From contig NC_049979.1 of assembly GCF_000003815.2 (NCBI RefSeq), positions 27,832,249 to 27,896,248 of the forward strand: a stretch of DNA of 64,000 nt, in the 5' to 3' direction. Positions 13,253 to 63,839 of this stretch are shown here, one piece after another. Under the pieces are notes generated by a model. That model made no database searches and was not told the origin of the DNA. It saw only the letters and a list, made by a program, of their open reading frames with translations. Position 1 is the first letter of the stretch; every line of letters begins with the position of its first letter. The DNA comes from Branchiostoma floridae. Taxonomy: Eukaryota; Chordata; Leptocardii; Amphioxiformes; Branchiostomatidae. Both the position numbers and the translations under genes were made by a program.

Positions 13253-16200
13253 TTATGGTCCTTTCTTAGAGGGGGGTGGTTCCAATTTGATCCCGCCATC
13301 TTCTGACACTCCCATGTGATCCTTCGATATCAGATCTGTCGGGGACAGAAAAACAGCTGCATCAGGTACGCTTGCATGAAACAGGCAATTATTGCAAAAT
13401 CTTTTTACCCTTATGGCAGATACTTCTATTAGCAATGCTCTTATCTGTTGCCAATGTAGAGATAACAAGGATTCCCTCAGGAGAGACAATTGCAGCACTC
13501 TGTCAAAGAACGACAAGAAATCTCAACCATCGATCATTTACAGACTGCTCATTATGTTCAACACATGTCTCACAGTGCTTGCAGGTCACAATGGTATCTT
13601 ACATTGATACAATTCTAGCTAGTGTCTTTCCTTCTGTCAGAATTTTGCTGCTGGGGATGGATAAAAATTTTGACGTGACAGACCGTGAGTTTACCAGCAA
13701 ACTTTGCCCCTCAAAATAAAGGAAACAACTTTTCAGAGGGTCTAGATTTCAAAATTCCCCCCTCGGATCGTCGTGCCTTTGAAAGGATTTCCATTAAAAA
13801 TCCAAGGGACAGAAAAAAATTCAGGCTCGCTAGAACATTACATTGATACAAGTATGCCTAAACTCTTAGAAGGCTAGCATTTGTGCACACAAAAATGCAG
13901 GTTCCCCTTATTTCACTATGGTGTATCCATTATTGTGAACATAAGAAGCATTGCAGAAAATCAGTTCTCTAAAATGCCAGGATAAAATCAAGATAATAGG
14001 ATTTGCTACTGAGCAAAAAAGGGCTCTACAGAAGCCGTACAAAATTGGTTGCCTGCGGGCAGATTTTCTGCTGAAAATTGCTTTTGATATCACAGACTAG
14101 TACCGGCAACTGCAGTATGTAATATACATTCTCATAATTCCACCAAGTGCCATTATACTGCCACCTCAAAAAACCTTGTTATAGAGGCCTTCTCAAGATT
14201 GTCTCCAATGCCTAAATATCTGAATTGTATTACATTTAAGATATTTAACATGCGGTGTTCAAGACAATCATGGGAAGACCTCTATACTGACGTTTTTTAG
14301 GTGGCGGTATAATGGCGCCCGGCGGAATTACGATAGTCGATGCTACATTTTGAATCAGGTCATTGAACTTTTTCTTTCTGCCTGAAAGTGTCCACAGTCA
14401 TCACAAAGCTATGATGGTTTTGATGATATAGACGTGACATGCATGATACATAATGATTAGGTTCATCATGTAGATGGTAAGGTCATACAAGGTCGTAAAT
14501 GGTTCACTAGTTTAGGTAGCGGCCATTTTATGGTGAAAGCCGCTATAGTGTCGTATTTACATAGTATTTAGGCTGAAGGCTGCACGGATTTTCTACGGAG
14601 GTTTGGAGATAAGACGTTTTGAGATGTGAGCTGATGTATAGATGTGAATATCAATCAGCACTAGGGACAGCAATTTATGTGTGAGTGGTTTTCAGAAATG
14701 GTGTTAGGGATGGATGTGTGCATGTCATTCAGAACAAGAACAAGGACAGAATGGATGTTAGAATACTAGTTAACATCGGGGATGGTTGTGTGGATGTTGT
14801 TCAGCACCAGTGACAGGGGTGTGTGTGTGAATGTTGTTCAGCACCAGGGACAGGGATGATTTTGTGAATGTTGTTCAGCACCAGGGACAGGGATGGATGT
14901 GTGAATGTTGTTCAGGGAGAGGGATGAATGTGTGAATGTTGTTCAGGGACTGGGACAGGGATGGATGTGTGAATGTTGTTCAGCACCTGGGACTGGGATG
15001 GATGTGTGAGTTGTTCAGCACCAGGGACAGGGATAGATGTGTGAATGTTCAGGGTCAGGGATGGGTGTGTGAGTAAGTGAATGTTCAGCACAAGGGTCAG
15101 GGATGGGTCTGTGTGTGCGTGTTGTTCAGCACCAGGGACAGGGGTGGTGTGTGAATGTTATTCAGCACCAGGGACAGGGATGGATGGATGTGTAAATGTT
15201 GTTCAGCACCAAGGACAGGGATGGATGGATGTGTGAATGTTGCTCAGCACCAGTGACAGGCATGGATGTGTGTGATTATAAAAAGAATGCTGCTGCAATT
15301 GCTCACAAATACACACCAATGTTCAGATTTCACAAAGACATGGATTGAGATAAACTTGAAATAGGTGTAGCGATGTCCAAGCTTGTAAAAGTTGTCTTTT
15401 TACCAACACCAATGCATCAAACCATAGACAACATCTCCACTATGACATAGATACATGCGTTATGAGCTTGCCTGTGAGAGAGAAAAAATCTGAGTCCATT
15501 ATGGAAAATACAATGGATAGGCTGATGAAGAGATATTCCTCTCTATGTTATTACTGACAGAACGAAAGGGAAAAACATTGTCCAGTTGCATAAATAGAAT
15601 TAGTAATTCCTGTCTGACTTATTTTCACGAATGCATCTGTTATGCTAGTTCACCTTTATCCACGGGGTAACCTATATCCGTTGTTATATCAAACTGCAAC
15701 ATTTTTAAATTTTGAGGTCCGTTGTTGCATGAAACTGAAATATTTGCAGTTTGAAACTACCGTCCATTGACTTGGTATCCCTAAATACCCTGTGTTTAAA
15801 AACAACGGATATAGGTCATCTCACAGATAAAGGTGAACTTCCGCCTACCTTTGTATTTCTTGGCACTTGGTACTCGAGTGAGTTTGGAGTCTAGCTCCTC
15901 ATCGTCTGAGATTTTCAAGACCTGTGTCCGGTACTCCAGTATCTTGGTCAGCAGGTCTGGTCGCCTCGTGATCTCGAAAACGTGCTCGATGTACGACAGA
16001 TCATCTGTGGAGGACAAGGCCTTGCAATAAGACTTGCTGTTTTCTTGAAGAAGGTGGCTACATTTAAGAAGCAGGGTTGGACAAGTCCACCAGCCCTATT
16101 GTCCAGGGCAAGTGAACGTGCTGTTCGGGCAAGTGCATGACCTACCCCACTTGCCCGATCGGGCAAGTAAGATTTTTTCATTGAGCTTGATTTTGATATA

Positions 16201-19200
16201 CTTGTTACTTTTTACAATCATGACATCAAGTAATGGTAAACATAGAAAAATAGAGGCAATAATAAGAATTCCATTTGCAGGAAGTAAAAATGCATATACA
16301 ACATGTAACAGTGACATTTTAATTTTGGGCAATTGAAAAATCTATTCGGGCAAGTAAATTTTTTATGTGCTTGCCCGATAGGACAAGTGAATTTTAGAAA
16401 ACTTGTCCAACCCTGAGAAGTCTAACATTTTTCTTGCAGCCTACTATATTGTAGGCATACTAACTATCCAGTGATGGTTACAGGTAATAGTAGGTCTATG
16501 CCCAGGATACTTCCAATTGACTAATTACGTTCGTCAGAAAGTTATCTTTTCAGTTTGCAATGATGGGCCTCAAGGTACTGCAGCAGGGCTTCAAAGTTTG
16601 AGTGCTATGGTAACCATTGTGATATTGAATGGTTGATAGCTCTTGCTTGTAATGTAAATTTTTTAGCTCACTTTGCAGTAACCCATTTTTAAATTTTAAA
16701 CTGTAATTTTTAATGCCAGTCTGTGACAGTTACTCATTTTACATACAAATTTATTCATCTTTTATTGATTTATATGATACTATCAATATATTTATTGATG
16801 TTGAAGAGATCTGCATTTTCTAGCAAGTGTTGAAGGGCCTTTAATACATTATGCGCAACCTTTTAGAGTCACACACAATGTATAATATTGTATTGAAGGG
16901 CCAATCAGTCAATATATGCACTTTACACCGAGCGTGTAAATGTCACTTAGGATAGGTCTCTTAAGGGCTTGGAGCCACACCTCAAGAGAAAGCTTTAGTT
17001 ATTGGTGTGTAAAAAGCACTCAGTCTGTTAGGCCTAGGAAATAAATGTTCTGTTTCCTGCTACCCGACCATGAACCCTAGCAAAAATCTGCCAACCCTTT
17101 TCTTAGATGGATGTGGGCAAGGAACATTCATTTGAAATCTGAGACAGTGATGAAATTTGAAACAAACTTGAAACCCATTCCCTAATTTGCTCATACATGT
17201 GATTGAGGGACCGATCAGCGCCCTCATCCAAAATTTGGACGATTCCAGGCGTTAATTTCAAACGATTTCAGATGAGATGTCAAGGTTCCCAGACAAAATA
17301 GCAGAGTTGCAACTGTATATAGTGAACAATAAAAGTCAGAGCAAGAATCGATTAATGTATATATATTAGCTATATGATAAGCACAGGAGTGAACTACTAT
17401 CCGAATGGTACCTAGGTTAGTATTTCATACAGACTTAAAAGATTAGGGCCTTCAACAGATTATGTACACTAAATATCATATTAGTCCATCTCACGCCATC
17501 CAACATGAAATTGATCCATGGTCTTAAAGTGTAACAGAATAAAAATTATAAAGATTCAAACTTTAAACATTTAATATTGAGCATTTCCACTATCTGTCTA
17601 CCAGAGGTAACGTTAAGCGTTTCTTGAAATATCAAAGGATTTACATGTGTGAAGGATACAGAAAGTCATGTTTCCAAAGCATTAGCTATTCATAACGACC
17701 TATACTTTCCTCTGAAGTCAGGTTTTATGTGTCCTTATGAGGTTAGATCTAAGCCATTCCACCTTCAACAACCTTCAACAACAAAGACATTTACGAAACG
17801 CTAGAGCCTGAGAGCCAATCGTGATGTCTGTAACATTACCACTAGTGCTTCTAAGCACTGCACTTCTATCTGGGGGGTGCTAGTCACTTAATGGGTAAGC
17901 TTTTCTTATGCTAAGCACTGCACTTCTATCTGGGGGGTGCTAGTCACTTAATGGGTAAGCTTTTCTTATGCTAAGCACTGCACTTCTATCTGGGGGGTGC
18001 TAGTCACTTAATGGGTAAGCTTTTCTTATGCGGAGCAAAAACCGCAACATGCCTTCCAGTTCATCTCCAAGCAGATGTTCGGAGGGAAGATGTTTTTTTA
18101 CAAAACCCATTTTCTGACAAAACTCATCACATCTGCTTGGTCATCATCATTATCACTGTACTGTACGCTCTGGATGCTTTGTCTAATGCAGTTGCATATT
18201 CAAATGATATGCAGCAAGTCTTATGTATCTATCTTTTTTTATTTCAAGTTACTACGCCCGTTTCAAGATAGAAGGAATTTCTGGCCACGAATATTGGCTC
18301 ATCATCGTTTGCAGTCTGCATGGGAAGTGATTGGTGATTATTAGTATTTGAATATCAATTTTGATCCAATAGACTGATGTCCTGGTAGCCAGCAGCCATC
18401 GGATATAAACAACAACAGCGATCGCTCGTATTGTCAATGTGGTATAACATAAACATAATACTATTACTGCCAGGTCATAAATATCTGCCACCCTGAAAAA
18501 GTATATCTAAAGAGATCACAAACACAACATCCAGCATAATGCACTGGTGCATACATGTACATGTATCTAAAGCTATAGCTGTGCATAACTGGGGGGTACT
18601 GTACTAGAGCTCTCTCAAACACACTGTTTTGCAAAGTGGCGGATTTATGTCCTAGCGGGTAAATGTTGAATGGTGGTTAGATGGGTTGCCATGATATTTG
18701 TTACTATCATTTTCCATGGCCAAGTCCTGAAAAGAAATCCTACTTCTCAACGTTACCTGGCGATAAAGAGCAACTTATGATAATGACAGCAGAATTTCAT
18801 ACCCTAATGTCTCAACCAGGTCTACTAGCAACGATAAGCTTGCACTTTGTACAGACTCTGTGTCGATACCTCAGTGCCAGGAGGCAAAAGCAAAGGCTTT
18901 GGCTTACCTCCTGGTGTCTGGGAACCACAATCATCAAGTTATCGCTGCATTCAGATTCAAGCCTTCTTTTTGAGTTACTGTAACAGTTATTTTATATGCC
19001 CTCCGTGAGGGAACATTTGATATCATTGGTTTTATCTAGTGTCTATGGACACTGGTTCCAAACTTTCGAATGAACTCCGTTGACCTTGTTCACAGAATGA
19101 ATGACGGAGGTCAATGGAGTTTGTCAAAAAATTTAGAGCGGTCCCTATACCGGTAGTGGTAATTCCAGTGTTGGAAGTAAAGTGTTAGCATTTTTCTATA

Positions 19201-19643
19201 ACTTATTCTACCAACACAGATGTGTAAGAAAGGAGTAAAAACAGAAAGAAACAACATGCTAATACCCTGGATTGAACACGGGCCGGCAGATCACAAAGCC
19301 AGCAGTGCTAACCACTATACTACAAAAGGCTGACCAGCCCATTGGCCTGGCTTATTATTATTGGTGCTACTTGAACCACCCACTGTTACACATGCTAAAA
19401 TAAATAGATGCATAAATAAATATCCCACAGAGTTCTTGCATGCAAATGAACCTGACCTTGAGCCAGCTTCTCGATCTTCTCTAAGAACATGAACCAGTCC
19501 CGAGGAGTCTTCAGCTCCGGCACCTTCTCCTCGGGTATGTCGTCCTTACAGGCCGTCTTGAACTGCTCCAAGTCGTCCGATGTGATGAGGTTGGTGAGAT
19601 CCAGTAGGAACTGGAGGTACGTCTCCGAGTCCAGCTCCGACAT
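13253..19643 (-). CDS. PEA15: PEA-15 death-effector-domain adaptor
   Basis: Small cytosolic adaptor. In vertebrates its DED binds ERK1/2 and FADD, holding ERK in the cytoplasm and modulating apoptosis. Three coding exons with consistent phases: 19457-19643 (ATG 19643-19641), 15849-16004 and 13253-13335 (stop TAA), giving 141 residues against 130 in human. The DED carries [30 protein letters not shown] and [18 protein letters not shown], including the RxDL motif, then RVLKIS-like [20 protein letters not shown] and AKKYK. The tail [15 protein letters not shown], then [12 protein letters not shown], aligns with the human ..IIKLAPPPKKA end. The PKC-type serine in VPSAKKYK is kept; the RQPSEEE site is not. 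An in-frame TAA upstream (19676-19674) fixes the start. A likely acceptor (TTTATTACAG) at 19693 implies an upstream non-coding exon. Confidence 0.95.
14130..14335. mobile_element. Palindromic element in PEA15 intron 2
   Basis: AATTCCACCAAGTGCCATTA, then TACTGCCACCTCAAAAAA and TAGAGGCCTTCTC, at the left. At the right is the inverted set GAAGACCTCTATA, TTTTTTAGGTGGCGGTATAA and TGGCGCCCGGCGGAATT. About 200 bp, no ORF. A diverged relative occurs at 60580-60760. Confidence 0.7.
14650..15275. repeat. GTTCAGCACCAGGGACAGGG minisatellite
   Basis: About 15 imperfect units of about 36 bp: GTGTGAATGTT, GTTCAGCACCAGGGACAGGG, ATGGAT. Lies in PEA15 intron 2. Units vary in length (insertions of GGAT and losses of CACC). 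Confidence 0.85.
15640..15840. mobile_element. CGCTAGTTCACC-family MITE abutting PEA15 exon 2
   Basis: TGCTAGTTCACCTTTATCCA at the left, GATAAAGGTGAACTT at the right, with inner CCGTTG and CAACGG words. Its right end is immediately next to the PEA15 exon 2 donor (GTAGGCGG occupies 15848-15841), so only 8 intron bases separate exon and element. Confidence 0.8.
16072..16415. mobile_element. CAGGG-ended word-repeat element (CTTGCCCG type)
   Basis: 344 bp. Starts CAGGGTTGGACAAGTCCACC and ends ACTTGTCCAACCCTG; flanked by a perfect 5-bp duplication AGAAG (16067-16071 and 16416-16420). The interior repeats the word GGGCAAGT / CTTGCCCG at least seven times. It lies 68 bp upstream of PEA15 exon 2, in the intron. 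Confidence 0.8.
17851..18030. repeat. Three identical 60-bp tandem units
   Basis: The unit begins CTAAGCACTGCACTTCTATC and ends GTAAGCTTTTCTTATG. Three copies are identical base for base. Lies in PEA15 intron 1. Confidence 0.95.
19205..19392 (-). mobile_element. tRNA-derived SINE, copy 1
   Basis: On the minus strand TAGTATAGTGGTTAGCACTG resembles a tRNA A box and GTGTTCAATCC the B box. The 3' part has GTTGTTTCTTTCTGTTTTTA. The same flanking words (CACTGTTACAC, AGAAAGAAACAA) occur in copies at 22235 and 37727. Confidence 0.7.
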
Positions 19644-19679
19644 TCTCACGTATCGAGTTGCTGAGCCTCTGTCTTAAAG

Positions 19680-22228: not shown

Positions 22229-22234
22229 GTGTAT

Positions 22235-22396
22235 AAGAAAGGAGTAGAAACAGATAGAAACAATAGTCTGACTCCCGGGATTCGAACCCGCGCTGACAGA
22301 TCACAAACCCAGCAGTGCAAACAACTACGCTACAAAAGGCTGGCAGCCGTTTGGCATGGTCGTTTGGCGGTACTTGAACCCCACTGTTACACTTGG
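22235..22396 (-). mobile_element. tRNA-derived SINE, copy 2
   Basis: The minus strand carries GCGGGTTCGAATCCCGGGAG, a good tRNA B box, preceded by GTAGCGTAGTTGTTTGCACT in the A-box position and followed by GTTTCTATCTGTTTCTACTC. Confidence 0.75.
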
Positions 22397-22399
22397 AAG

Positions 22400-27075: not shown

Positions 27076-27079
27076 TTTT

Positions 27080-30562: not shown

Positions 30563-32013
30563 TCTAATTGAGTCAAGTTAGCGCTCTCAGCCTGTTTGCG
30601 CATTCCTTAAGAAGCGTAAACAGGTTGGGGGCGCGTAATCTCCAAGCAGATCTTGCTGTGGCAAATGGGAAGGAGTTTAGCCGGCAGAGCTGTTATTGGC
30701 CACAGCGAAGATCTGCTGCAGAACGCACCGGTCAAAGGCTATTATCAGGCAATTAAACTGCGTTAGGAAGAAGGTGCGAATTGCCCCGGGCGTGCGGGGC
30801 CAGGGATCCCGTCACGGGTCGGCTGTAAGAGTTCATTGTGTTTTCTGTGACATCTGGGGATTTCTTTGCTTCTTTGGTGTCAATAACTTACTACGTACAG
30901 GAGGAAAACAACAGCAAAACGCGTCAGCACGATGCGACAGGACGCAAGTGCAGTGGGGAGGGGGGCGCTGACGTCGATTTCCCCATCGAACATTTCACGA
31001 AGCAACGGCGCCTTTGTTTGTCTGAGAATGCACCGGACGCCGTTAGAAATAATTCAAATCGACTTCGCTGAAAATGCACGTGCTGATTATGTGGATACCT
31101 TTCCAAAATTTCAAGTTCTGTCTACGTTTGTACACGCCGATGTCTGTCCGTCAAATGTGACGAGCGCGGGTCCTTGAACCGAATCCAAGCGTATATGATC
31201 GGTAAAGATTTGAAGTTGCAGATATGAAAAAATGATACAGGAAGTGTTTAGTTAAAACGCAGCTTTTACTGCGAAATATATACAAGTAACAACTAGATAA
31301 TAACTTGTTATTTGTGTACAACTGATAATCATATGTCGATACGTTGTCTTGGTGCGCTGTGATGCAGTCTGCTCCAGCGGTTTCGGGGGGAAGCCCCCGC
31401 TGTGAACTGGCGCGGCTCGCCGCGTTTGTCCCAGATACTGGCTCGGAAGGGTTGTAAAACGATAATCCCGGCCAAATTTAGCCAATTTGCACGTTGGAGG
31501 TAAGTGGATACTAGGAGGAGCAGAAACACGTTTCTGAAAAGATCGCTCCTCCCGCTGCCTTTGACCGGTGCGTTCTGCAGCAGATCTTCGCTGTGGCCAA
31601 TAACTCCTCTGCCGGCTAAACTCCTTCCCATTTGCCACAGCAAGATCTGCTTGGAGATTAGGGGGCGCGCCACGTGACCTCAATTACACCTGGACATACT
31701 CACCTGACACAGGGGTACTTATTACACTGAGAAATCTTGCATTTTGTCATTCGGAGCGGACGAACCCCACCGTAGCTTAGGGGAAGCAAGCGGATGAGCG
31801 TGGCTAGATGCGTGTGGTTGGGGTCATCAAGGAAGGGGGGGTGGGGGGTGGACCGGGCAAGGAAAGTTGCCGTTCCAAAACGCCCACCCCCCACCCTGAT
31901 TTTTTGTATGTTTCGTTATCCCGCCGTTTACGACCGTCCGGGCGTTTGCTCCGGACTTTTTTGCCCATACCTTACACTCTCTTCGGAGCACGCCCGGAGG
32001 TCAGGCAGGATAT
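30563..32013 (+). mobile_element. Short member of the shared-termini pair, split by a Mutator-like insertion
   Basis: Same start (TCTAATTGAGTCAAG) and same last about 70 bp (GGACTTTTTTGCCCATACC .. GGCAGGATAT) as the preceding long element, bounded by AGTACTAT at 30555-30562 and 32014-32021. Without the 1034-bp insertion it would be about 417 bp. Adjacent, same orientation. Confidence 0.6.
30636..31660. mobile_element. Mutator-like non-autonomous transposon with 9-bp target duplication
   Basis: 1025 bp with terminal inverted repeats of about 105 bp: TAATCTCCAAGCAGATCTTG to GAACGCACCGGTCAAAGGC, differing only at a few bases. A perfect 9-bp duplication GGGGGCGCG lies at 30627-30635 and 31661-31669. 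The uninterrupted site GTTGGGGGCGCGCCACGTG is present at about 27902-27920. Long terminal repeats plus 9-bp duplications are hallmarks of Mutator/MULE elements. Apparent ORFs (for example 31252-31683 minus) run through the terminal repeat and encode no transposase. Bases 31004-31160 match 63219-63375. Confidence 0.85.
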
Positions 32014-34087: not shown

Positions 34088-36872
34088 CTACTGGCTTGTT
34101 GCAAGAATCTTGCCCCTCACTTCTTCGAAATTGAGATCAGAGCGGTCGTTTGCTTGATACTGGAATCCCTTGCACTTCTTCATAAGGGCGTCGGAGCTTG
34201 AGGAATGTATCATCCTTTTCTTGATCCCCACATCATCGGGACACCTTGGGAAAGAGAAAAAAAGGCCTTTTATTTTTAATGCTTGACATTGTTTGCCACA
34301 AGTTTTGAGAGCCAAACCCAGTATGATGACTACTGGCTGAGAAATCTTATTATCATTATATCGTATTGGAAGAAATATGTTGAATGCCATATTTCTATGC
34401 ATTCGAGACCCTGACAGATACAATCAATATTTACTGCCTAGGCTTCTGCAACTTTCTGTAGGATTGTAAGGATTCAGGGATATATGAATGTGCATGTGCT
34501 GCCAGGTATCCTGTGCAGTGTGCAAGCTGACATAACAGTTAACTCTATACTTAAGGACACATTTGGAAACATACATTGCAAAGGGCTGTAGCAGTAGAGG
34601 ACAGGAATGCTTCTATCGGTCCTTTATCAGCTCTTGTGTAAATTTGTCATTTGATTATACATGTATTTCCTCTTTCATAACATCTTTGTCAACATAGCAT
34701 GTACAAAATGTACTTTATAGCTACAAAATAAATCCTTTTGGTACAGGTGCAAAATACTGGTGCAGGTCCCAAATACCGAATGCTAGCTTGACTTAATCAC
34801 ATTTCTTGTGGCCTAAAGGCAATGCGTATTCAACTAACCGATAGGGGAGCAGGCCATTAGCTCCTGGCAGCGACAGACTGTGTGACACAGGCTACAAGAA
34901 TACCCGTGTACCGGTGCTGTATGTTCACTATTGACGATATACCCTTGATTTGGGTAGTAAGGATAAATCCAGTATCAAGAAACAAGGACATTTTTGAAAT
35001 ACACTTGTTTTTAAGACTGAATCTAATTACACCAAATTCTACATCTTGCAATGCTTTTACTTTTTCCCACATGATAATGAAATCAAGTACTAACCATCTT
35101 ATTATGACCAGCTTGTCACGATCCTGGCCCTCATTGGTCTTGTAGTCAAAGTCGTACACGCACCATCGTGGCTCGTTCGCTGGAAGACTAGCCTGGAACT
35201 GGTCCCAGGTTGATTCCTGCCATGAAAAGTATAAACAACAGCTTGTCAGCTAATCTGTCTGCAAATGGAACAAGAGTCCTTTTAATTAGCCTGGGTGCCA
35301 TGCGGGTAGTAGTTCACTCCTATATGTTAGCTTCTGCTACCTGTCTGGAGACCTGCACATTCAAACTGTTTGGTGCTAACGCCAGTTAATGAGCAAATTA
35401 AGGAATAGGTTCTAGAGGGCTTCGATGACAACATTTTTAAAACCAATCCGTCAACTTTGAAGGACAAAAATCCTTGTTGGAAGCTACAGGCGGCTTGGGG
35501 ACGCCGTCCACGGCCGTAAAAGCCACATACTGTTTGTTTTGCTATTGTTATGATTGTTGACAATATGTGTCGGCGCCCTTTCGCATACGACAATCTCATT
35601 AAAACCCGTTTTTCAAGGTCTCAGTTCAGTCCTTCTAATTGATTTTCACGGTTTTCACGACGATTGCAATTGGCTGACGGAAAAAAAAATCGAGCTGGCT
35701 AAAGCCCTGCCTCCCGCAAGCAGACAGAGGGCTTTCGTGTGTTGGAACGCCTGTTCGAACGAGCGCTTGAACCCATTCCTTTATTCGTTCAGGTGTAGGG
35801 AACAATCATTGCCCTCGTCCAGACGTTAACTTGGCCAAGGATCCCAGACGGAACAGCAGATAAGTGACTGCAGGGCTTGAAATACTTTTTTCTGCATACC
35901 TGCACTGGTGCAGGTAACACAGAAACTTACCTACACCACGCTGAATGGATCATTCTAAAATTGTTCAGGAATCAGTGCTATTTTTTCTTCTATACTTTAT
36001 AGGTGGTAACAGTCAATGTACCTAATAGCACTTCATATACACCTATATCATGACATTATTATAAAACCCAGTACATGGTCTAGTGCAGGTTAGGTGCAGG
36101 TAGACACCAGAAATACCTGCACAACTCCAATTTTACCTGCATATGCAGGAGATATTTTGAGCCCTGGTATGTAAGGAAATGGTTGGATTGACACAAACGT
36201 CCTTTTGTTCATCTTACATCAACATCATTGCCTTATTTCTGCCGTAAAGACCTACCTTTGTTTTGCTTTCCACAATGATCTCTGTCTCATTCTCCGCCAC
36301 CTTGAACGTCACATACTTGTACTTGTGCCCTTTGTTCACCTCATCATATGCCGTCATGACGTCATCTGTAACTTTGATACCAGAAGCCTGGGAAAAGATT
36401 ACAATACATGTACTAGTATGTTACAAAAGTGGAGGTGACTTAAGTAAACAGTTGATATGAGTAAATCTCACTTAATTGAGATAGTTGATATGAGTTAATC
36501 TCACTAAATATCAAACAGTCGATATGAGTTTATCTCACTAAATACATGAGGTTTATCTGAAACATATTTTGTTCTGTATCAATTCAACTTTACTGTGTTC
36601 CTTATCATAAGTTTTTTCCAGTGCACAAATAGTGCATTATCTAAAGAGCAACATAAAAAGGTGCTAAAAAGACAGAATTGCACTTTTTTTCCAGCCAATC
36701 CTGTAGTAACAGCGATGTACAGTACTGTTTATTTTCTAATCATATAAAAACTGGTCCACTGCTTTCTTTTGAAGAGCAAAAAAATACCAGGTTTTGTACC
36801 TGTACCTAACGTTACACCTAATTACAATTCTTTACAAATCAATACGTCTATAAAGAAATAAAAACTCACCAT
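34088..36872 (-). CDS. ADF/cofilin actin-depolymerising protein
   Basis: Binds and severs actin filaments in the cytoplasm. Four coding exons: 36870-36872 (ATG only, donor GTGAGT), 36256-36387, 35095-35216 and 34088-34244 (stop TAG). Together they make 137 residues. The isolated start codon is a known hallmark of animal cofilin genes. Protein starts M-ASGIKVTDDVMTAYDEV with the regulatory Ser3, continues HKYKYVTFKVAENETEIIVE, WCVYDFDYKTNEGQDRDKLV and ends GIKKRMIHSSSSDALMKKCK.. The K-x-R/K-M actin-binding helix is present. It lacks the basic nuclear-localisation insert of vertebrate cofilins and is closer in length to actophorin. A 5' non-coding part of exon 1 runs to 36929. A further non-coding exon probably ends at 39084. 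Confidence 0.95.
35871..36166. mobile_element. CAGGG-ended word-repeat element (ACCTGCA type)
   Basis: 296 bp, from CAGGGCTTGAAATACTTTTT to GATATTTTGAGCCCTG. The interior repeats ACCTGCA / TGCAGGTA about eight times. No clear target duplication is visible. In cofilin intron 2 (between coding exons 2 and 3). Confidence 0.75.
36440..36545. repeat. Three-unit tandem repeat GTTGATATGAGTAAATCTCA
   Basis: About 40-bp units GTTGATATGAGTTAATCTCA followed by CTAAAT.., in the intron between the cofilin ATG exon and exon 2. Confidence 0.75.
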
Positions 36873-37077: not shown

Positions 37078-37369
37078 CAGGGCTCGAAATACTGGGTGCA
37101 TGTGCACCAAGGTGCACCCAAAATTGGAGCTGACTGCTGTGCACCCAATTATTTTCTGTTAAAGATATCAAAGTATACTGGTATACATCATATTCTAGAC
37201 AGAGCTCTAAGTGTTAGAAAGATAATAAAAATGTCTGTCATGGTACTTGTTTAAGAATTTGATAGCTTGTAACTAAGTTTTATTACCCAAAATTTTTTGG
37301 GTGTACCCAATTTTTTAAGCTGCAGGGTGCACCAGTGCACCTAATCCCAAAAATGAATTTCGAGCCCTG
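37078..37369. mobile_element. CAGGG-ended word-repeat element (GTGCACCC type)
   Basis: 292 bp, CAGGGCTCGAAATACTGGGT to GAATTTCGAGCCCTG, with a perfect 6-bp duplication TTATAG at 37072-37077 and 37370-37375. The ends repeat GTGCACC / GGTGCAC. Confidence 0.85.
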
Positions 37370-45900: not shown

Positions 45901-48900
45901 ATTTCTTTGAATATTTTAGAAACATTTTGAAAGTAACTGTACAAAAATATCTTTATTTAGAATAATTGTGAAACCTCTCTGTGATTATTTCACATTTACA
46001 AATATTTACAAAAAATGGTAAACCTGGCCAAATGGTAAAATTAGTTTATTGCCCCCATAAAAGAAAGCCCTATTGTTGCATCTGTATATTTTTAGATTTC
46101 ACTGCTGGGCACTGGTGGATCCTTTGTGGTGGGCCATTGTTGCATGGCACCCAACCATACTTTGCAAGGATGTGTGAATTGCTATCTTCCCAGCCCACCG
46201 AACCATTTACAAAAAATGGTAGAAAATGGTAGAAAATGGTAAATTATGGTAGAATACTGTTGTCATTATTTAGAAACCATTAGAAGTATCCAATTCCACA
46301 CCATGAATATTTCCAAAGTTTTATAGGACCAGGGAAATATTTATAAAGTTGAAACAGTGTTAAAAATATTTCTGAAGTATCAAATGTCCTAGACATGTAA
46401 TTACAAAACTTTAAAATCAATTCTAAACAATGGCAACAAACATCCGCATGGTGTCTTGGAATGGACTCTATACATTACCATGTGGGTAAGGTGGACTTCT
46501 GTCACATTTAAGATGTATTCTTTAAAGAACGACTTACCCTTTGAAGTGCTTGGCTACAAATGAGTGGTCATTATGCACATGAAGTTTCTTCCCTCTCCTT
46601 CTCAGAGTTCTTCGTCTTGCTAGCTCAGGTGGGATTAAATAATGTCTGTGGGAAAATAAGAGAACAACATACAAATGAACAGCCCTTTATAAAGAACAAT
46701 TAACTTACACTTCTTAGTGATTTAATTGGCACCTGTATTCTTAAGGGAATCTGACCTGATTTAAATTAAAAGTGGCTAATCTCTCTATTCGGCTTCAGAG
46801 ATGTTTCTTTTTTTAATAAAAAAAAAATTAACAGGTGTCAATTTTGTTTCAGGCTTTGAAAGCGAACACAATCACGTAACTCAAGAATAGGACGAGGGAT
46901 TGTCATGATTTTTGGTACCTAGATAGCTCAAGTGATTACTTAGATAAGCATATTCTAATTATGCAATCCAGGGGCTTTCGTTTAGAAATGCACTTGAATA
47001 GTCATATGCTAATCATGCAATCCAGTGATTTCCGATTATGCAAATCAAAACCAAATTCACATAATGCATCAGGAAATACTACTACAATCATAGTCTTCTT
47101 TGCTAAGATGATACCATCGTACTTGAAGTCTTAGGTACAGAAAATGATAAACTGATATAATCTATGCAAATGAGGACCTAGTTGCTGATCCAATTAGAAA
47201 CATTTATGATATATTAAGGGTTGGACAAGTTTTCTAAAATTCACTTGTCCTATCGGGCAAGTACCCAAAAAAATTTACTTGCCCAAACCAACTTTTCACT
47301 TGCCCGAAATTTAAATGGCATGTATTCTTACTTCCATCGATGGAAATCTTGTTATTGGCTCTATATTTCTGTGTTGACCAATGCTTGATGCCATGACTGA
47401 AAAGTGGCAAGTATATAAAAATGTCACTCATTGAAAAATCTTACTTGCCCGATCAACAAGTGGGGTAGGACATGCACTTGCCCGACCATCACTTTCACTT
47501 GCCCGGGACAATAGGGCTAGTGGACTTGTCAAACCCTGCATATTGCCATCTCTAACCAACATGACCCAGACATGAGTGACCATAGTGGAACATACTTTTA
47601 TTAGGGCTAGAAAGACGGAGTAACTGACCTGAGCTGTCCTTTCTTCTTTGTCTCCAACACAGTGATGGACATCTCCTCCAAGTTCCCACTGATGCCGCTG
47701 TAGCGGGCACTTCCGTAGCTGTAAGTCGAGGCACGAGCCCCGTAACTCCGTAAGCTGGTTGTCTCCGAATTGGACACTAACTGCTCGTAACCTGCGGTCA
47801 CAGTAATGTTCATTGTGAAGATACAGTTATGTGGAATCACATGTATTGTCATGGGATCTCTGGAATCATTCCAATATACATCATTTGGAGAGGTGGTAAT
47901 ACTAGTTCACCTTTATCTGCAGGGAAACCTATATTCGTTGTTAACGCTAGTTCCCCTTTATTCATGGGGTAACCTACATGTATATCCGTTGGTTTAAAAA
48001 TTTGTGATTAGGGATATCAAGTCAACGGATGGTGGTTTCAAATTGCAAGATATTCAATATACAGTTTGAAACCACCGTCTGTCGACTTGCTTTCCCCTAA
48101 TACCTTGTTTTTTCTTTAAACAATGGATATAGGTTAACCCACGAATAAAGGTGCACTAGCGTTATATCGAACTGCAACATTTTCAAATATTGGGGTCCGT
48201 TATTACATGGAACCGAAATATTTTGAAAATTTGCAGTTTGAAACTACAATTTGACTTGTTATCCCTAAACACTGTGTCTAAAAAGATAGGATATACATTG
48301 TAGGTCCCTTCGTGGATAAAGGCGAACTTTCATTAACTTAACTCTGACATTAATGTACAACTACAACATGTACATGTTGTATGTGCTGGTGTAATAATGA
48401 AAAGTTAGCTAAATTAGATTAAGAATTTCTTCATTCAATATGTACTTACCTTTGGTTTGAACAAACAAAATCAAACATATTTTGCCAAAATGTCAGGTTA
48501 TCTCTAAAATATTATTAGTACAAGGTGTTCTAAAAATATCTTTTCTCCTGATTTTCCCATTTTTTAATTATACTGCAATTTTCTATCATGGTAAAACAAT
48601 ATCTTCAATGATTTTTGCAAGAAAATGTTGCATATTCCACTACCATCCCTCCCCATAACAAAAAAATGTCACCCCAGTGCAAGTATAGGGAGTGAAACAT
48701 TCAGTAGAAGTCAAAGAAACCTACTGTATCTACATTATAGTTGCAACAGAAGTTAATATCGACTGTTGGTCAGTTCTACATGTATTTTGAGCAATGTTGT
48801 TGCAGACTTAACATTTTTCATGCAAAATATCATATAACACTCACCTTGACACATGCCAGCTGAAAGCATGCCGTGCATTAGTACTAAATTGTGTTCATCG

Positions 48901-48932: not shown

Positions 48933-49174
48933 GACAGCAATGGTTTGGGATTGGTACTACATTTTTAATGGATCATTCACTATTGCTACACAGCAAATGC
49001 CAGGTACTTAATAGCACATTGGTAAGTATGCAGCAATCTATTTGAGACCACTTAACTGCAGTGGGGGGACTTCAAAGAAAAGTGCTAAATTTTCCCAAAA
49101 GAGTGGTCTTGTATCTAATTTGGGGCTGGAACTGTGGTGTGACATTCCAGTTTGAGACACAGCTACATGATGTA

Positions 49175-49647
49175 GAGGTGGGTACCGGTGCAGAAAATTC
49201 AGGTACAGGTACGGTTCAGGTACAAAGGACCATGTCCAGGTTCAGACCTGATTAGCTAAAAACTTATGAATGGGTGATACTAAAAACAATGGTCCATTTT
49301 GTTCCAAAAGGATTCTGTTTGATGGAGTATCTAGTGTCCATTGGCATTTTAAAGTTCTATCTTCATGTAAACAACAGTTGACTAACTACCTCTGTTTTAG
49401 ACCAAGTTTGACCGTAGAAGATTGGTAAAAATGACTATAAACTCTCCTCAGAGCTACTTTGCTCTTGTTCTTTTCTTAGTCGTGCAAGCTCCAAACACGT
49501 GAACACCTGCCAGTATTATCTGCTCATTTTCAAATCGGTCCAACATACGGTCCACTGATTTTTTGCAGGTCTGTTTTTTCTGGACCGGTCCAAGGAGAAA
49601 AAACGGTTTTGTACCAGGACACTGTACCTGTACCCACCCCTAGACAC
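49175..49647. mobile_element. GGTGGGTAC-ended word-repeat element (GTACAGGTAC type)
   Basis: TAGAGGTGGGTACCGGTGC at the left, CTGTACCTGTACCCACCCCT at the right. The interior ends repeat CAGGTACAGGTACGGTTCAG and GGACCGGTCCAAGG. It has the same construction as the CAGGG elements but different ends. Confidence 0.65.
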
Positions 49648-49754
49648 AGCTATCTTGTTTGTTGAGATCGCGCATTTTACATGTACGTGTGTCACATTGT
49701 CAGTGTGACTGAAAGGGAAAAATTGGTGAACGAAAAAGTTGACGCAATAATTTG

Positions 49755-51401: not shown

Positions 51402-51429
51402 ATTTTGTATATAACGTTATATACAAAAT
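51402..51429. repeat. Perfect 28-bp palindrome
   Basis: Two 14-base halves, ATTTTGTATATAAC and GTTATATACAAAAT, with no spacer. Confidence 0.95.
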
Positions 51430-53278: not shown

Positions 53279-53400
53279 GTCCATCACAATTAGCAGTTCC
53301 ACCAATGAGAGAAGGACAATTAGTAGTTCGACCAATGAGAGAATGACAATTAGCAGTTTGACCAATGAGAGCGTGGCAGCATGTCCATCAATTATTTGCA
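53279..53400 (+). repeat. CCAAT-containing tandem repeat, copy 2
   Basis: Three units of about 29 bp: ACAATTAGCAGTTTGACCAA, TGAGAG.., followed by GCAGCATGTCCATCAATTAT. Each unit holds a CCAAT pentamer. Homologous to 768-860. Confidence 0.8.
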
Positions 53401-53884: not shown

Positions 53885-54272
53885 AAAGCCACACCAATTT
53901 TATTTGTTGCTTCTCGGATTCGCCTGTCCAATTTTTTTTCATTTTCAAAAAAAATTAAGTCCTAAGAAAAAATAATACAGGTTTTGCTAGATCACAAACC
54001 TGTACATATTACCATTCAGAGCCACATATACATAGTTTCAGTCTAAAATCAATGCCTTTTATTCAGAACATTCAATTTAGTAACAACTAAAAGGAAGAGA
54101 TTCATTGTATAAAATGTGCCATGAAACTCCTCATGCTGTTTTTTTTTTGTTATTTAAGCTGTATATCTTCACCCCAGACCTTTTAAAAAAATTCATTTTT
54201 GTTTTGTTTTGACCTGTCGGTCCAATTTAAAAAAAATCCGAGAAGCAACAAATATATTTGGTGTGGCCTCAT
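53885..54272. mobile_element. MITE with GGCCACACCAATTTTATTTG ends
   Basis: GCCACACCAATTTTATTTGT, TGCTTCTCGGATT at the left; AATCCGAGAAGCAACAAATA, TATTTGGTGTGGCC at the right. Best-preserved copy of the family. It lies 3' of the C2-domain gene. Confidence 0.85.
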
Positions 54273-54483
54273 GGAATGTTTCAATGTCATTACCAGTTCG
54301 AAGCACATTAGGTAACACACTAAAACATGCACGACGATATCCTCCAATATCACAAACATTCTTGCAGATTCCAATTTGACAAGCAACACATTATTAGTCT
54401 AAATCAACACAGAGCAGTGTGGTACCTGCAAGATGCATATACATGTATTAGGATTGATCCATTAGAAAGCTGGTTAGTTCAGG

Positions 54484-57400: not shown

Positions 57401-60400
57401 CCATAACATGAATTTTTGTCAATTTTCCCTTGCGGCCACACTGACATGCCACACACGTGTAAAATATGCGCTCGGAAGATCACATCCTCAGTTTTGCCTC
57501 CAAAGTAGATACAAGATAATGCAGCGTTACCACTGAATTTAAAAAAAAAATAGATTAATCAAAAAGACATTTGCAGTGGCCATGCACCTATTCATGACAT
57601 TTTGCCAAATGCAACTTTCTTCAAATTTGCCATTTCAGGCCAATAGAAGTATGCTGGCAACATGTTGGAGACTGTCACTTGTCTAACTGGCCCCTCCCCT
57701 TCTAGGAGGCCAGCCGGATGTTGGACTCGCTACTTTAAGCGAGATTTACATGTAATCAGGGTACCAAAAGGCCCAGCCCAATGAGATACCCACTTTATGG
57801 AGTAGTGTAAAGTGCAAGTGGAACAGTGCTTGGCTTATCTTCTGAACCTTGTCCTCCCTCACCTGACAGTAGAGTCTTGCCGCTGTCCTGGGCGGGGGAG
57901 TCGTGCTCGCTGGTGCCCGGCTGGGACTGCTTGTCGCTGCTCTTGTCGCTGATGTCCCCTGAGATATAGCCCTCCGAACCCGGCCCTACCAACGCACCCA
58001 GTCCCGTGGGAGACAAGTCAGTCATGCTAGCTGGTTTCTGTAAACAAGGGGGGTGGGGGTGGTTAACACTCGTTCACCTTTATCAGTGGGTAACCTAATA
58101 GATACAATATGTTGTTTTTAAAAACTGGGTATTTAGGGATTTTAAGTCGACGGACGGTGGTTTCAAACTGCAATTTTTTGAATATATTGCAATTTGAATC
58201 CCTAAATAGTCCGTTTTTAAAAACGGATATAGGTTATCCCGCCAATAAATGTGAACTACATTGTAGCATTAACTTTATTATGACAGACCATACACAAAAT
58301 ATGTTCTGATATCTGATAAGTGTAGAGGATTCAGCAGAATGAAAAAAAATAATTTTAAACAAATTTCAAAGCAAAATCTTTACGATCCAGGATTGTTACC
58401 TGACAATTGATAACAACTAACAAATCTATTTCCATTTACTTCATTTCGGTCCATTTTGTTTCATTCTGTTCCATTGCATACTTTCGGTACAGACAGTTTG
58501 ACCACAAAAAGAAGAGGGTTACAACTGAAGACATTCAATGACGGCAAACAGTTCTCTACCTGGAAGCCTGGACTATGGTGACATCAGGACAAGTTAGTCA
58601 GAAAATTTGCAGGCAGTAAGTGTTAAAGTTTACAGGAACAGGGGTTATCTTTAGGTTGAAGGTTAGGAGCGCTACTGTAATACAATGTAGTTGAGAAATG
58701 TTTCATGAGGAACTGGGTGGGAATAGAAAAATTGAGATGCAAACTACTAATTTATAGATTCAAACAAAATCTACGACACAACAAAACAAAATCTACCACA
58801 CAACAAAACAAAATCTACAAAACAACACAACAAACATAAACACCACTCCAAACAGAACACACATATGATACCTTTGCCGCAATTTCCTTCTGATTGCAAG
58901 ACGTGCAAAAAAAAAAGCAGGAGAGAAGAAATCAAAACAAGAATTATGATCACAAACTTGCAGGGGCTATCTACTGATCATGCATACAAAAAATAAGCAA
59001 ACTTTCCACCAACGTTTTTATCGGAAGCCTCCAACGACATGTCCTCATTTTCCATTTCCTCCTGAAGGTGATGTATGAAAACAGATGATTTGGGAATAGA
59101 AGTTAAAATCTAAACTGAATGAGTTTTAGAAGGGAGTGATGGGGTCTTTGACAGCAAGTGCGCAGGTGTGCCACTCTATGAATTTCTGTGTATGATAAAT
59201 TTTTACTTTTCCTATTAAAGCTAAATCACAAACATCCCATCATCATGTACATGTTTTATATGACTGTTAAGTGTAAGACCAAGTTTTCCCTGCAGTAACG
59301 CAGAGTTTGATAAAAAAAATTGTTGTCTATGACGGCAACTATAGCTGCAGTTAGTGCCTCTAGTCTAGTAGTAGGAAAATTTGAGTGTAAAGCTTAGTCT
59401 TCTTTTTAGCCTGGGTACCATTCTCCGTTGTAACTGTTGGTCCAATTTCTTAGTTTCTGACCGCGGTTAGTAAACAATCTTTTTGCTTGATGACCACAGT
59501 AAACATCAATCCACATAAAAGATGGATTGGCAACAAAAGGCAAGACTTCCATCTCCTCAGCCTTCACAGTATAGTAATTACCTGTAGGGCAAAGGCTCCT
59601 GGTTGTCTGCCACAAGACATGACATCTACATTACATTCTATGTGCAAACATGTCAATACCTCACCAGAGAGATAATTATAATAATGTCTAGAGTAAACTT
59701 TTTCCAACCCATAAACCAAATGTCTCTGTATCAAGAAATACCCCGCATATCAGCGTGACAGGGAAAATCCTGAGAAGAAGTCAAGTGTACACAATGTTGA
59801 AGTATCATCTGACTGTTGGCATTTTTGATAGATGCAATGGAATATCTTTTGAAGTTACCATGCAAAAATTCATAAATGATGCCAGGCCACTCAGACCCCT
59901 GATGTTTGCAATCCATTGTAGAGCGGTGGGACACACACATACTTTTGAAACATCATTTAGATATGGTGGCATCTTTCAGACTTAATGGAAGCAAACCTGC
60001 TAACTGTAACAGTTAAACATGGCCTTAGAGCAGTCAGCTTCCCATTTTTGGTTGGGGTGATAAAAGGGTGACTAAGACAGAGACCTGATTTGTGGGGAAC
60101 TCTTGCCAAAGTATGACGCAAAGGACACTTTCAACTCTATATGCACAATTTTGATTATTTTTCAATGGTTAATAGGATGGGGCAGGCCACAGCAAATGTT
60201 TTTGAACTTGGTGAGAAGGTCATAGAAATTTTTTTTTTGCACAACCTTCTGCTGACTGGCTCTCTTGCTAAATACAGTCCCTTAACAGTAAAACCTGAAC
60301 ATTGGATGGTCACATTGACTGTTCCTGCATCAGTCTTGACCTACCCTAGAGACTCCTGTAATGATAAGTGTGCTGGTTTTTGTGGGGGTCTTGCTGCGTT

Positions 60401-63400
60401 GCTGGGACATCTCCCTCAGCTGCCTGATTGCTGTCTCTGCCACAGAGTCCACTCCATCGATCATCAACAGCTCTACACAAATACAAACATCCCATATATT
60501 TTATATAATATATTAACTAACCTACTCAGAAAAGAAAAGCTATCTCTAATATCTACCTTTCTGAAGCCATTTCATGGAATTGTCCCTAAAATTCCACCAA
60601 ATGCCATAACACTGCTACATGAGAAAAAAAAATTCATGAACATAAAATAAAGAAATATGTACCAATGCTGCATCACTTAGTCCTGAGCTGTATATACACT
60701 TGAGATATTTAGGTGTTCAACTTCAGGACAATGTTGAGAAGGCCTCTACAACATTTTTAATGTGTCTGCATTATGACATCCAGTGGAAATATGAAAGATG
60801 TTAAAGCCTATGCCAAAACATGCAAATGCAGAAAACATAAATTTACAATAACACTGAATCAGATTCAACTTGTCCCGGGCTTGCCTCATTTCTTTTGGTG
60901 TTTCTTTAGATTCACTCCTGAACCAAGTTTGCAATCTTCATCAGCTTGTTGACTTACCCTGTGATGCACTGAGTGTCTGAGATGGGACAGACAACAAACC
61001 AGACTGGTCCTCCACTCCCAGGTCATCCTCATACTTCTTCTGTTGGACAGGAGATTCTGAAGGACAGAAAAAAATTCAAGTCTTTTTTCTCCTTTCTAAT
61101 TCTCTCTCTCTATTCTTAATGATATTACATGTTAATGAAGGGTATGCTAAGTAAAGCAGAAAACCGACATCTCTGAAATAAATATTGAAATACAAAATGG
61201 AGTCTTTCCTTCCTATGAAAGAAAAAGCGATATCGATTTAGTTCAGCTCACTGAAAAGCTATTATTCCACTGAGACAGAGAAGACAGATACTATGTATGT
61301 TTTTACAGGATTGTAATGGAGAAATTTCCCGACCCTCTTTATGACAAGCACATTTAACAGTGGAACACAGCTGGAATCAAACTCATAGCTTCTACTAGTT
61401 CCAGAGGCAGGGCCGTTAACCACTGGACTATGTATGATACTATGCTTCCTATGTGATATTAGTTACATGTAGAAGAAAAATCTTTCTTAATGAATATCAG
61501 GGCTTGAAATACTGTGTGATTGTGCACCCTGGTGCACCCAAAATTGGTTCTGTGCACCAAAATTTTCTGTGGTTGCACTGGTGCACCCAAATACTTTTGT
61601 AGGTTTACGTATGTAACGCTATCAAAATGCCTAATATATACCATATTCTTGACATCAAAATGTTGGAAAGATAATAGAATGTCTGTCATAGTACTACTTG
61701 TTTTAGAATTGGAATTTGGAACTTGGCATCATCGACATTTTCGATGCTCCAAAACTGTATGTCGCACACCTAAATATTTTTTGGTGCACTCAATATTTAG
61801 GTTGGATGAACCAGTGCACCTAATCCCAAAAATAAGTTTCGAGCCCTGAATATGAAAATATGACCCACCATGAACGGACCCAGGTGCAGATCTGTCGTTA
61901 GCCGCTCTTTCTACCGTGGTGGTCTGTGTGGTGATGACCGTACCCCCGGCGGTGACAGTCCGGTACGTCTCCACCTTCTTCTGGGGGGTGGTGGGGTAGT
62001 GGGGCCTGATGGGGGAGGGCTGGGGATGCAGCGAGTTCAGGGCCTGTTGAGCTGCTGACGGCTCCATGAATAAGAACTGCAGCAAAGAACATCATATCCA
62101 AAGGGTTAGCTTGGAGATCATACACATTTCATGCACAATTCCTGTTAAACCGATTATGTCTGTTCAAATAAAAACTCTGTGTTGCTAGAATCCATAGTTT
62201 TTCCATGAACCATGACAGTGGTAAATTCCATCTTCCTGCCACCTTTGATTCACTCCTGACACCATCGTGCTTCCAACTTCCGGAAAGTCAGTGCAGTGAA
62301 TCAGTCATCTGATGAAGGTTGGCGATATCAATGGAAAATTCATGGTGTTTTCTCTTTGACCAAGCACAAATTTTAAAAGTAATTATGCCTGTTGATCTGA
62401 TGCCTTGCCTCGTATATTTACAGAAAACTGTGTATTTTTCATTGTTAAAATACAAAGATTAGCATAATTGTAAGTCACTTGGGTAGGGCATTAAAAGAAC
62501 CCATCACACACTAAAAAAGAGTAGGTGTGCTTCCCATTGTGAGTGGAAGAAATAAATCTAACCAGATATGCAGCTTGTACTGTTCAGTACAAACCTTGTG
62601 TGTTACATCATGAGGCAGTTTACTGGGTAAGCAATACAAACAAAATCCTTTACCTCAGCAGTAACAGAAGCGTTGATACTGTCATCGTTGGATAAAGCTC
62701 TCTGTAGAGGGATGATCTGTCGGGAGCTCAGGTTCTGTGTCAGCATGTCCATGGGGATGACAGCTTCACCGAGTTCATCTGGCAAATTAACAACAGGTTA
62801 AAGAAGTTTCCAGTACCTTCAGAAAAAAAATCTACTGGCCTGAAGCAACATTTCTCTGTCTCAAAATTTAAATGATGTTTTTTTTGTACATTTTTAGTCG
62901 CAGTGACGAAATTCTTTCAAAGTTTTACTTTTCAACTGTGAAGAAAACACTTCAACACATGCTACAATGATTTAATTACAAGATCAAGGCTAGTGAACCA
63001 ATATCTATCCATATGTACCCAATACAAATATCACACTTATGAAAAAAAATGCACTGGCCCGATTGGGCAAGTACATGTACATGCAGGGTTCGAAATACAC
63101 ATACTTAACTTGCAATTTGCATGTAATTTTTAGAGATTTGCACGTAAAAATATTCTGAACTTGCAATCTTGCATGTTGAAAATGCCTGGCCTATAGTAAA
63201 AATACTGAGGCCACGGTGCCTTTGTTTGTCTGACGGGGATCGTCACCAGTCATCAGTAGGTGTTATAGATAATCAAATTTGCTGCAAACTTACATGCTGA
63301 TTATGTGGATATCTTTCCAAAATTTCAAGTTCTGTCTACATTTTCATGCGCCGATTTCTGTCCGTCATAAGTGACAGAATGGGCAAAATTCTTATTTGTC

Positions 63401-63839
63401 CTGAGCAGCAACATTCCGCCAAAGGACGGAATGATGGATGCTGTCTAGAACATTGCAGTATAGACTAATTGTATTTTGCATGTCAATTTTTCAAATTGCA
63501 CGTAAAGTTTTTGTTAACTTGCAATTTTGCATGTAGCAAAAAAAAAAGTATTTTGATCCCTGACATGTAACGAAGGACATGCACTTGCCTCATCCGCACT
63601 TTCACTTTCCCCGAGCAATAGGACTAATGGACTTGTCTAAAATTGAAAACAAGCTAAATGCTAAAATCTTCTCTATGGTCACAACAATTCTGACTTTTTG
63701 CTAGTTAACAGATTATAAACATGAAATTTGAAACCTTTCATATGAAAGAGGAGAATAAAATCCACACTTACTACTGTCTGACCCTTTTTCTCTATCGAAC
63801 AGAGAAAACTTCAGCTCTTTTGTTCTTGTGCTGAGATCA
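54484..63839 (-). CDS. C2-domain protein resembling C2CD2/C2CD2L (TMEM24), C-terminal 400 residues
   Basis: Ten exons join in phase: 63772-63839, 62654-62778, 61869-62076, 60958-61056, 60345-60472, 59014-59061, 58872-58889 (18-nt microexon), 57863-58037, 56074-56127 and 54484-54764 (TAA). The first two encode the end of a C2-like sandwich ([29 protein letters not shown]). Then come [16 protein letters not shown], a Pro/Thr-rich linker ([16 protein letters not shown]), [29 protein letters not shown], and a Lys/Ser-rich tail with [13 protein letters not shown] and [19 protein letters not shown]. In vertebrate C2CD2L the C2 is preceded by an ER anchor and SMP lipid-transfer domain, and a polybasic tail binds the plasma membrane until PKC phosphorylates it; that function is inferred here. 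The N-terminal half lies beyond the window. The microexon and the exon at 59014 are the least certain. Confidence 0.85.
55557..56012. mobile_element. MITE with GGGTATCTCACTG ends, copy 1
   Basis: AAAGCGGGTATCTCACTGAA, CCTGTTGGCGGC at the left; GTCGCCAACAGGGGTA, GTCCAGTGAGATACCCTTTT at the right. It lies in the last intron of the C2-domain gene, with its right end 62 bp from exon 56074-56127. Confidence 0.8.
57356..57799. mobile_element. MITE with GGGTATCTCACTG ends, copy 2
   Basis: AAAGTGGGTGTCTCACTGGC, CCTGTTGGCGAC at the left; CCCAATGAGATACCCACTTT at the right. Shares TTCCCTTGC and CATGTTGG words with copy 1. It ends about 64 bp from the exon at 57863. Confidence 0.8.
58060..58270. mobile_element. 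CGCTAGTTCACC-family MITE
   Basis: TTAACACTCGTTCACCTTTA at the left; GGATATAGGTTATCCCGCC, AATAAATGTGAACTAC at the right. It starts about 23 bp upstream (minus-strand sense) of the exon at 57863-58037, beside its acceptor. Confidence 0.75.
58766..58840. repeat. ACAACAAAACAAAATCTAC tandem repeat
   Basis: Three units of about 27 bp, CAACAAAACAAAATCTACCA type, 30-100 bp downstream of the proposed 18-nt microexon on the minus strand. Confidence 0.8.
60580..60765. mobile_element. Diverged relative of the 14130 palindromic element
   Basis: AAATTCCACCAAATGCCATA, then GAGATATTTAGGTGTTCAA, and GAGAAGGCCTCTACA. The order corresponds to 14130-14290, but the right end is missing. Confidence 0.5.
61330..61440 (-). 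mobile_element. Possible tRNA-derived SINE head, copy 4
   Basis: On the minus strand TAGTCCAGTGGTTAACGGCC (A-box-like) and GAGTTTGATTCCAGC (B-box-like) are about 35 bp apart, as in a tRNA. The 3' part differs from the other SINE copies. Confidence 0.5.
61498..61848. mobile_element. CAGGG-ended word-repeat element (GTGCACCC type), copy 2
   Basis: 351 bp, CAGGGCTTGAAATACTGTGT to AAGTTTCGAGCCCTG, with perfect 5-bp duplication AATAT at 61493-61497 and 61849-61853. It is 20 bp from the exon ending at 61869. Confidence 0.85.
63040..63640. mobile_element. CTTGCCCG-type element interrupted by a second element
   Basis: CTGGCCCGATTGGGCAAGTA at the left; ACATGCACTTGCCTCATCCG, ACTTTCCCCGAGCAATAGGA and TAATGGACTTGTC at the right belong to the same family as 16072 and 47216. 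The middle is the 479-bp nested element. Confidence 0.7.
63084..63562. mobile_element. CAGGG-ended word-repeat element (CTTGCAA type), nested
   Basis: 479 bp, CAGGGTTCGAAATACACATA to TTTTGATCCCTG, with perfect duplication ACATG at 63079-63083 and 63563-63567. The ends repeat ACTTGCAATTTGCATG. The middle (63219-63375) matches the interior of the Mutator-like element. Confidence 0.8.

Follow-up and report, generated by a model that had tools for sequence, protein, structure and literature searches.

Short CAGGG-ended palindromes of Branchiostoma floridae are probably hAT-class elements whose arm words go with their own transposases

Introduction

Among the described DNA transposons, the hAT5 group of hAT elements (Kapitonov and Jurka 2007, as cited in PMC12730594; PMC9004415) is close to the subject of this paper: a class of short CAGGG...CCCTG palindromes, each filled with one repeated word, six of which lie in a 64,000-nucleotide stretch of the amphioxus Branchiostoma floridae (contig NC_049979.1, positions 27,832,249 to 27,896,248; hereafter the window). 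We liken the two by their hAT transposase, 5-bp target duplications and animal hosts; the difference from hAT5, as those sources present it, is that the amphioxus sister families vary their arm words on one layout. The searched assembly comprises 513 Mb, and the window belongs to its contig C1 (35,335,272 bases).

Hermes reads its subterminal repeats with an N-terminal zinc finger; the first two repeats form a quasi-palindrome, and the phasing of the repeats matters. The contacts S66, N67 and R70 precede the zinc ligand H71 (PMC10368747). The amphioxus elements share with it an N-terminal zinc finger, subterminal repeats beginning with a quasi-palindrome, and the catalytic fold, but Hermes has 8-bp duplications, a BED zinc finger and another repeat motif, whereas the amphioxus finger is zf-C17orf113. 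The Herves transposase binds the subterminal motif CG/AATTCAT (PMC3143072), and in Kat1 the subterminal repeats are important for activity (PMC4763223); these too are hAT subterminal repeats tied to transposase binding or activity, but each account describes a single element and no sister series with exchanged motifs. The CGG-binding proteins, derived from domesticated hATs (PMC8097297), likewise represent hAT-derived zinc fingers with many DNA specificities, although they are host genes and in PMC8097297 are not paired with transposon arms. Finally, in Ac/Ds and other systems of miniature inverted-repeat transposable elements (MITEs), short copies and their autonomous partner have common ends (PMC3260210), while amphioxus has several partner families with the same tip and different subterminal words.

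MITEs and the hAT5 group are known, as are subterminal repeats and enzyme-specific motifs, and the amphioxus families themselves may well be listed in Repbase. Our literature search, which left most subscription papers outside its scope, returned no account of these families or of word-exchanged sister families on one layout.

Results

All six elements of the original prediction are real; a scan of the window for CAGGG-like palindromes recovers them at the positions proposed:

16072 to 16415, unstranded: 344-bp element found in the palindrome scan, tips CAGGGTTGGACAAGT at both ends, word ACTTGCCCG, duplication AGAAG
35871 to 36166, unstranded: 296-bp element of the ACC group, tip CAGGGCTTGAAATAC, ACCTGCA six times, no duplication between the compared flanks (GACTG and GTATG)
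37078 to 37369, unstranded: 292-bp element, tip CAGGGCTCGAAATAC, word GGTGCACC, 6-bp duplication TTATAG, a shortened copy of the L039 element (see below)
47216 to 47538, unstranded: 323-bp element, tip AAGGGTTGGACAAGT, word ACTTGCCCG, ATATT at either side with the right-hand copy shifted by one base
61498 to 61848, unstranded: 351-bp element, tip CAGGGCTTGAAATAC, word GGTGCACC, duplication AATAT, a shortened copy of the L039 element
63084 to 63562, unstranded: 479-bp element, tip CAGGGTTCGAAATAC, words TTGCAYGT and ACTTGCAA, duplication ACATG

The four exact duplications of 5–6 bp claimed for these elements are thus present, and the elements at 16072 and 47216 are 81% identical in reverse orientation. 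Shared tips were also confirmed: the window has 17 copies of CAGGGYTYGAAATAC at up to 3 mismatches, against a mean of 5.3 and a maximum of 13 in 100 shuffles, and five copies of the second tip CAGGGTTGGACAAGT, a count matched in 3 of 100 shuffles. Genome-wide, exact CAGGGYTYGAAATAC has 2,360 forward and 2,390 reverse occurrences (4,750), against 2 + 2 when this pattern is read backwards.

The claim that each element is filled with one repeated word holds for five of the six, where the count of the commonest 7-mer was matched by 0–1 of 500 dinucleotide shuffles. It does not hold for 63084, whose best 7-mer count is attained by 55/500; the literal word CTTGCAA was dropped here as not significant, and a looser word picked afterwards, TTGCAYGT, occurs six times.

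A wider collection was built from 95 tip places, fetched out of the first 100 in the list; all lie within the first 4.5 Mb of C1, so the sample is local rather than genome-wide. Excluding tips that stayed unpaired under the pairing rule, it gave 61 two-ended elements of 249–783 bp (57 plus 4 from the window). They fall into the groups ACC (ACCTGCA, 40), GGT (GGTGCACC, 15), ACT (ACTTGCAC, 2) and TTG (TTGCAYGT, 2), with two unassigned: L066, which resembles a degraded GGT copy, and L093, which carries AGGTTG-type words. No element among the 61 has two or more copies of another group's word. Read 75 bases inward, 102 distinct exact tips were ACC in 65 cases, GGT in 17, ACT in 8, TTG in 3, ACC and ACT together in one, and none of these in 8.

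The duplications of this sample are mainly of 5 bp: 31/61 are exact (ACC 16/40, GGT 10/15, ACT 2/2, TTG 2/2, unassigned 1/2) and 44/61 match with at most one mismatch, while the left flank of one element and the right flank of another gave a 5-bp match in 3 of 3,660 control pairs. The 8-bp duplication of classical hATs was found in none of the 61. Exact duplications of 6 bp are seen in L059, L069 and the window element 37078, and of 7 bp in L042, L085 and L099.

The original prediction of a hAT-like origin with short duplications is borne out by longer elements with the same tips, which encode hAT transposases and duplicate 5 bp. Searching the genome for the hAT dimerisation domain gave 33 matches at 30 loci, and a tip (at most 1 mismatch) lies within about 1.5 kb at three of them (L012, L013 and L031). 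A whole-protein search gave 31 matches at about 25 loci, six of which have recognisable ends (lineage A on C1 and C9, and lineages B, D, E and F). Lineage A is represented by two full elements of 3,813 and 3,815 bp. Their tips are CAGGGCTCGAAATAC and CAGGGCTCGAAATTC and their arms are of the GGTGCACC kind; they have a 719-aa open frame (transposase A, the L039 gene), and their duplications are CATAT and TGTCA. Over 3,816 columns the two copies differ by 4 mismatches (99.79% identity), which suggests that they moved recently. The transposase encoded on C1 is named by NCBI “zinc finger protein 862-like [Branchiostoma floridae]”.

Both ends of the L039 element are matched by 37078 (85% and 89% identity) and by 61498 (78% and 86%), which are therefore shortened copies of it. 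For this GGTGCACC pair the 5-bp hAT origin follows from the matching full-length elements, and for the other window elements it is likely by extension. No autonomous element with matching ends was found for 16072, 47216 or 63084, and 35871 matches one decayed end. The short elements have the traits of MITEs, being short, with terminal inverted repeats, without transposase and in many copies. No transposase sequence was found in the window by tblastn with the transposases and relatives found.

The two parts of the lineage B transposase (L041, C172) have 64% and 59% identity to A, and the arms at the sole recognisable end of this locus carry ACTTGCAC and resemble L048, L060 and L061. Lineage D (C13) is a fragment with stop codons and an ACCTGCA end, in which 56/70 bases agree with the ACC consensus; lineage E (C5) is a fragment with a stop codon and the end AGGTTGCA. 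Lineage F (C19) is a 4,300-bp element with the duplication ACAAG and a transposase 32% identical to A; GGGACA occurs nine times in bases 16–165 of its two ends, which was reached in 0/500 mononucleotide shuffles. The suggestion that different transposases go with different words is thus upheld: five lineages adjoin five arm words, two of them as decayed one-ended fragments.

The encoded proteins carry the hAT C-terminal dimerisation domain PF05699 over the cut-off (E 5e-10 in A, 2.9e-7 in B), a predicted Hermes-like transposase fold, and an N-terminal zinc finger assigned to zf-C17orf113, not to zf-BED. Transib elements have CACWRTG-type tips and 5-bp duplications, and by duplication length alone such another superfamily would fit our elements. 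We regard this as extremely improbable, since the hAT domain, together with the Hermes fold, is present in the transposases inside matching elements, and the tips are CAGGG, not of the Transib type; for the GGTGCACC group it is already excluded. The duplications of the full elements (CATAT, TGTCA, ACAAG) are of the hAT5 length.

Tips were not found in the fetched stretches at 13 loci (L104, L105, L107, L110, L111, L112, L033, L017, L018, L027, L024, L015 and L016); the end scan covered the matches other than the second C19 copy, C3:1123404, C6:27014253, C6:21671935, C6:14986057 and C11:14952797. Protein searches with about 8,000 candidates scored each gave no further lineage named plainly B. 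floridae, and a PDB sequence search gave no match up to E 1. Relatives are present in other amphioxus assemblies, P0002 and P0004 in hybrid ones and P0003 in that of B. lanceolatum.

Three candidates for autonomous copies were rejected. The 3.66-kb tip pair L062 has ends from two groups, so it represents two neighbouring elements. The 6.07-kb ACC-type pair L063 (C1:753055-759122) holds a gene of another transposase kind, likely an insertion, whose long open frame we take to be a pogo/CENP-B-type transposase. L061 gave no transposase match by tblastn; its bases 91–2363 (C1:3983390-3985662) form a 2,273-bp ACT-type element with the duplication CAAGC and other DNA inside, including an open frame with MPACVVCKNNN, and this cargo is perhaps a captured host gene fragment. 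At L106 (position 2628, C5) a GGTGCACC-type end abuts the N-terminal side of the decayed E transposase, which is another nesting across word groups.

The arm words were originally described as swapped between constant tips. They do differ by group, but the words behind the GAAATAC tips are not unrelated: they vary around a constant TGCA core and stay in register. The consensus arms of ACC, GGT and ACT, the last built from only two or three elements, all place TGCA at the same distances from the tip, namely 31, 39 and 62 at one end and 20, 26, 36 and 56 at the other; random placement gave equal sharing in 0/100,000 trials at either end. The register is less clean in single elements than in the consensus: TGCA occupies the three first-end positions in 19–22 and the four second-end positions in 23–34 of 40 ACC elements, the corresponding figures being 9–13 and 12–14 of 15 in GGT, and 2/2 in ACT. 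As the triplet preceding TGCA, the ACC group has ACC in 7/7 consensus units, the GGT group GGG or AGG in 7/7 and the ACT group ACT or ACA in 7/7. Between ACC and GGT the differing columns comprise 14/14 word bases, 0/28 TGCA, 1/30 tip and 20/61 other arm columns, and the excess at word bases was reached in 2/100,000 permutations; between GGT and ACT they comprise 14/14 word bases and 27/61 other arm columns.

The layout is wider than these three groups. At the end on the transposase C-terminal side, units lie near 31, 39–41, 62–65 and 81–86 in A, B, D, E, F, 63084, 16072 and 47216, with one or two of the four missing in single copies, e.g., 35871, L044, L059, L061 and L093. For six ends random placement matched this layout in 1–237 of 200,000 trials, the unit cores of the CTTGCCCG and GGGACA arms having been picked after looking. 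The first two units form a quasi-palindrome: TACCTGCAC-TG-GTGCAGGTA, AACTTGCAC-CA-GTGCAAGTT or GGTGCAC-TG-GTGCACC.

Two explanations of the words without a matching enzyme can be weighed on these data. The words may reflect neutral family history, in which each family descends from a founder with drifted arms and one tip-recognising transposase moves all of them. The tips are indeed nearly identical over ACC, GGT and ACT (0 or 1/30 columns differ), their arm layout is homologous, and the lack of mixed-word elements is equally expected from single founders. We nevertheless consider such a history unlikely: the same exchange occurs at seven units per element with TGCA unchanged, distinct words adjoin distinct transposase lineages, and several hAT elements need their arms for movement, as reported in PMC10368747. 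Alternatively, the words could have spread by gene conversion or slippage, as homogenised repeats with little relation to the enzyme, which would agree with one variant being present in all units of an element. Units in both orientations, at fixed offsets and with unlike spacers, and the retention of the layout in the distant C19 element make this origin very improbable.

The following further features of the window concern these families:

62824 to 63640, unstranded: older CTTGCCCG-type copy in two parts (62824-62884 and 63574-63640), 76–82% identical to parts of 47216 and 16072
620 to 667, plus strand: CTTGCCCG-type end fragment (TAGGGTTGGACAAGT), 79–81% identical to the ends of 16072 and 47216
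6507 to 6539, minus strand: ACC-type end fragment of 33 bases, with 85% identity to the end of 35871
49175 to 49640, unstranded: 466-bp palindrome with GGTGGGTAC-type ends, a candidate only

The element 63084 is inserted between the two parts of the older copy. Its interior (63207-63375) resembles 30999-31161, a stretch inside a long GC-rich palindrome, with 76% identity across 169 bases; a long inverted repeat with nearly identical arm ends (AGGAGTTTAGCCGGCAGAG...TTATTGGCCACAGCGAAGATCTGCTGCAG) spans 30685-31611 and represents a palindromic element of a different kind. As for 49175, to which a similar plan had been ascribed, the ends GAGGTGGGTAC and GGGGTGGGTAC are present, but there is no adjoining duplication and the word GTACAGGTAC occurs only once per strand; the best direct repeat around it (49155-49655) is of 11 bp, AGACACAGCTA, and stands 9 bases off the left end. 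We have dropped it as a member of the class, and its analogy with the CAGGG elements is unproven.

Discussion

The data support the original interpretation of the arms as binding-site arrays that accompany different transposases. We consider it likely that the six elements are short hAT-class copies with a 5-bp duplication and that each arm word is the predicted binding site of the element's own transposase. The results above establish the ends, duplications, word groups, register, gene neighbourhoods and predicted fold; that the words are bound, with what specificity, and in what order arms and enzymes changed, we infer.

The shared CAGGG tip would be the putative cut site of the enzyme, and the arm an array of predicted sites, each at a fixed distance from that tip; the N-terminal zinc finger is likely to read them, as it does in Hermes. 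It is by analogy with the Hermes subterminal repeats that each word is likely to be a zinc-finger site. Sister families in this genome retain the offsets and site cores, and the bases adjoining the core have been exchanged at nearly all sites, probably together with changes of the zinc finger; each transposase would then mobilise the short copies of its own family.

Aligned on the first zinc histidine, which we inferred to correspond to Hermes H71, the residues read K-N-V-R-K-H in A, P-N-I-T-S-H in B, K-V-I-E-S-H in the relative P0002 and R-A-L-T-G-H in F. Positions 5 and 1 before the histidine differ among A, B and F (K,K; P,S; R,G), whose words differ, and we predict from these three enzymes that they may determine the specificity. 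A broader scheme, in which at least six sister families use one docking array, exchange its specificity bases in concert with the recognition helix and form mutually separate pairs, is proposed tentatively, with chances that we put somewhat below even.

Several observations count against these proposals. Even at one mismatch 17/61 elements have no 5-bp duplication, and three each have 6 and 7 bp. Lineage B is known by one end, the left end of L041 not being found within the fetched stretch, and D and E are decayed fragments with one end each. Among the loci examined no transposase lies beside the CTTGCCCG or the TTGCAYGT/CTTGCAA words. ACC and ACT show no excess of differences at word bases (7/14, vs. 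23/61 in spacers), random placement equals the layout of 47216 in 3,955/200,000 trials, and the after-the-fact choice of some unit cores belongs here too.

When a transposase shifts its DNA preference, every site at both ends of the element must follow, which is a step hard to explain. In amphioxus, alternative word states coexist in one genome and can be aligned base for base, one of them with a transposase gene that is open and has evidently moved not long ago. The proposed pairing accounts for a class of word-filled palindromes whose tip numbers thousands in the genome and would supply several separate pairs of hAT transposase and array, in which the evolution of multi-site DNA-binding specificity becomes directly testable.
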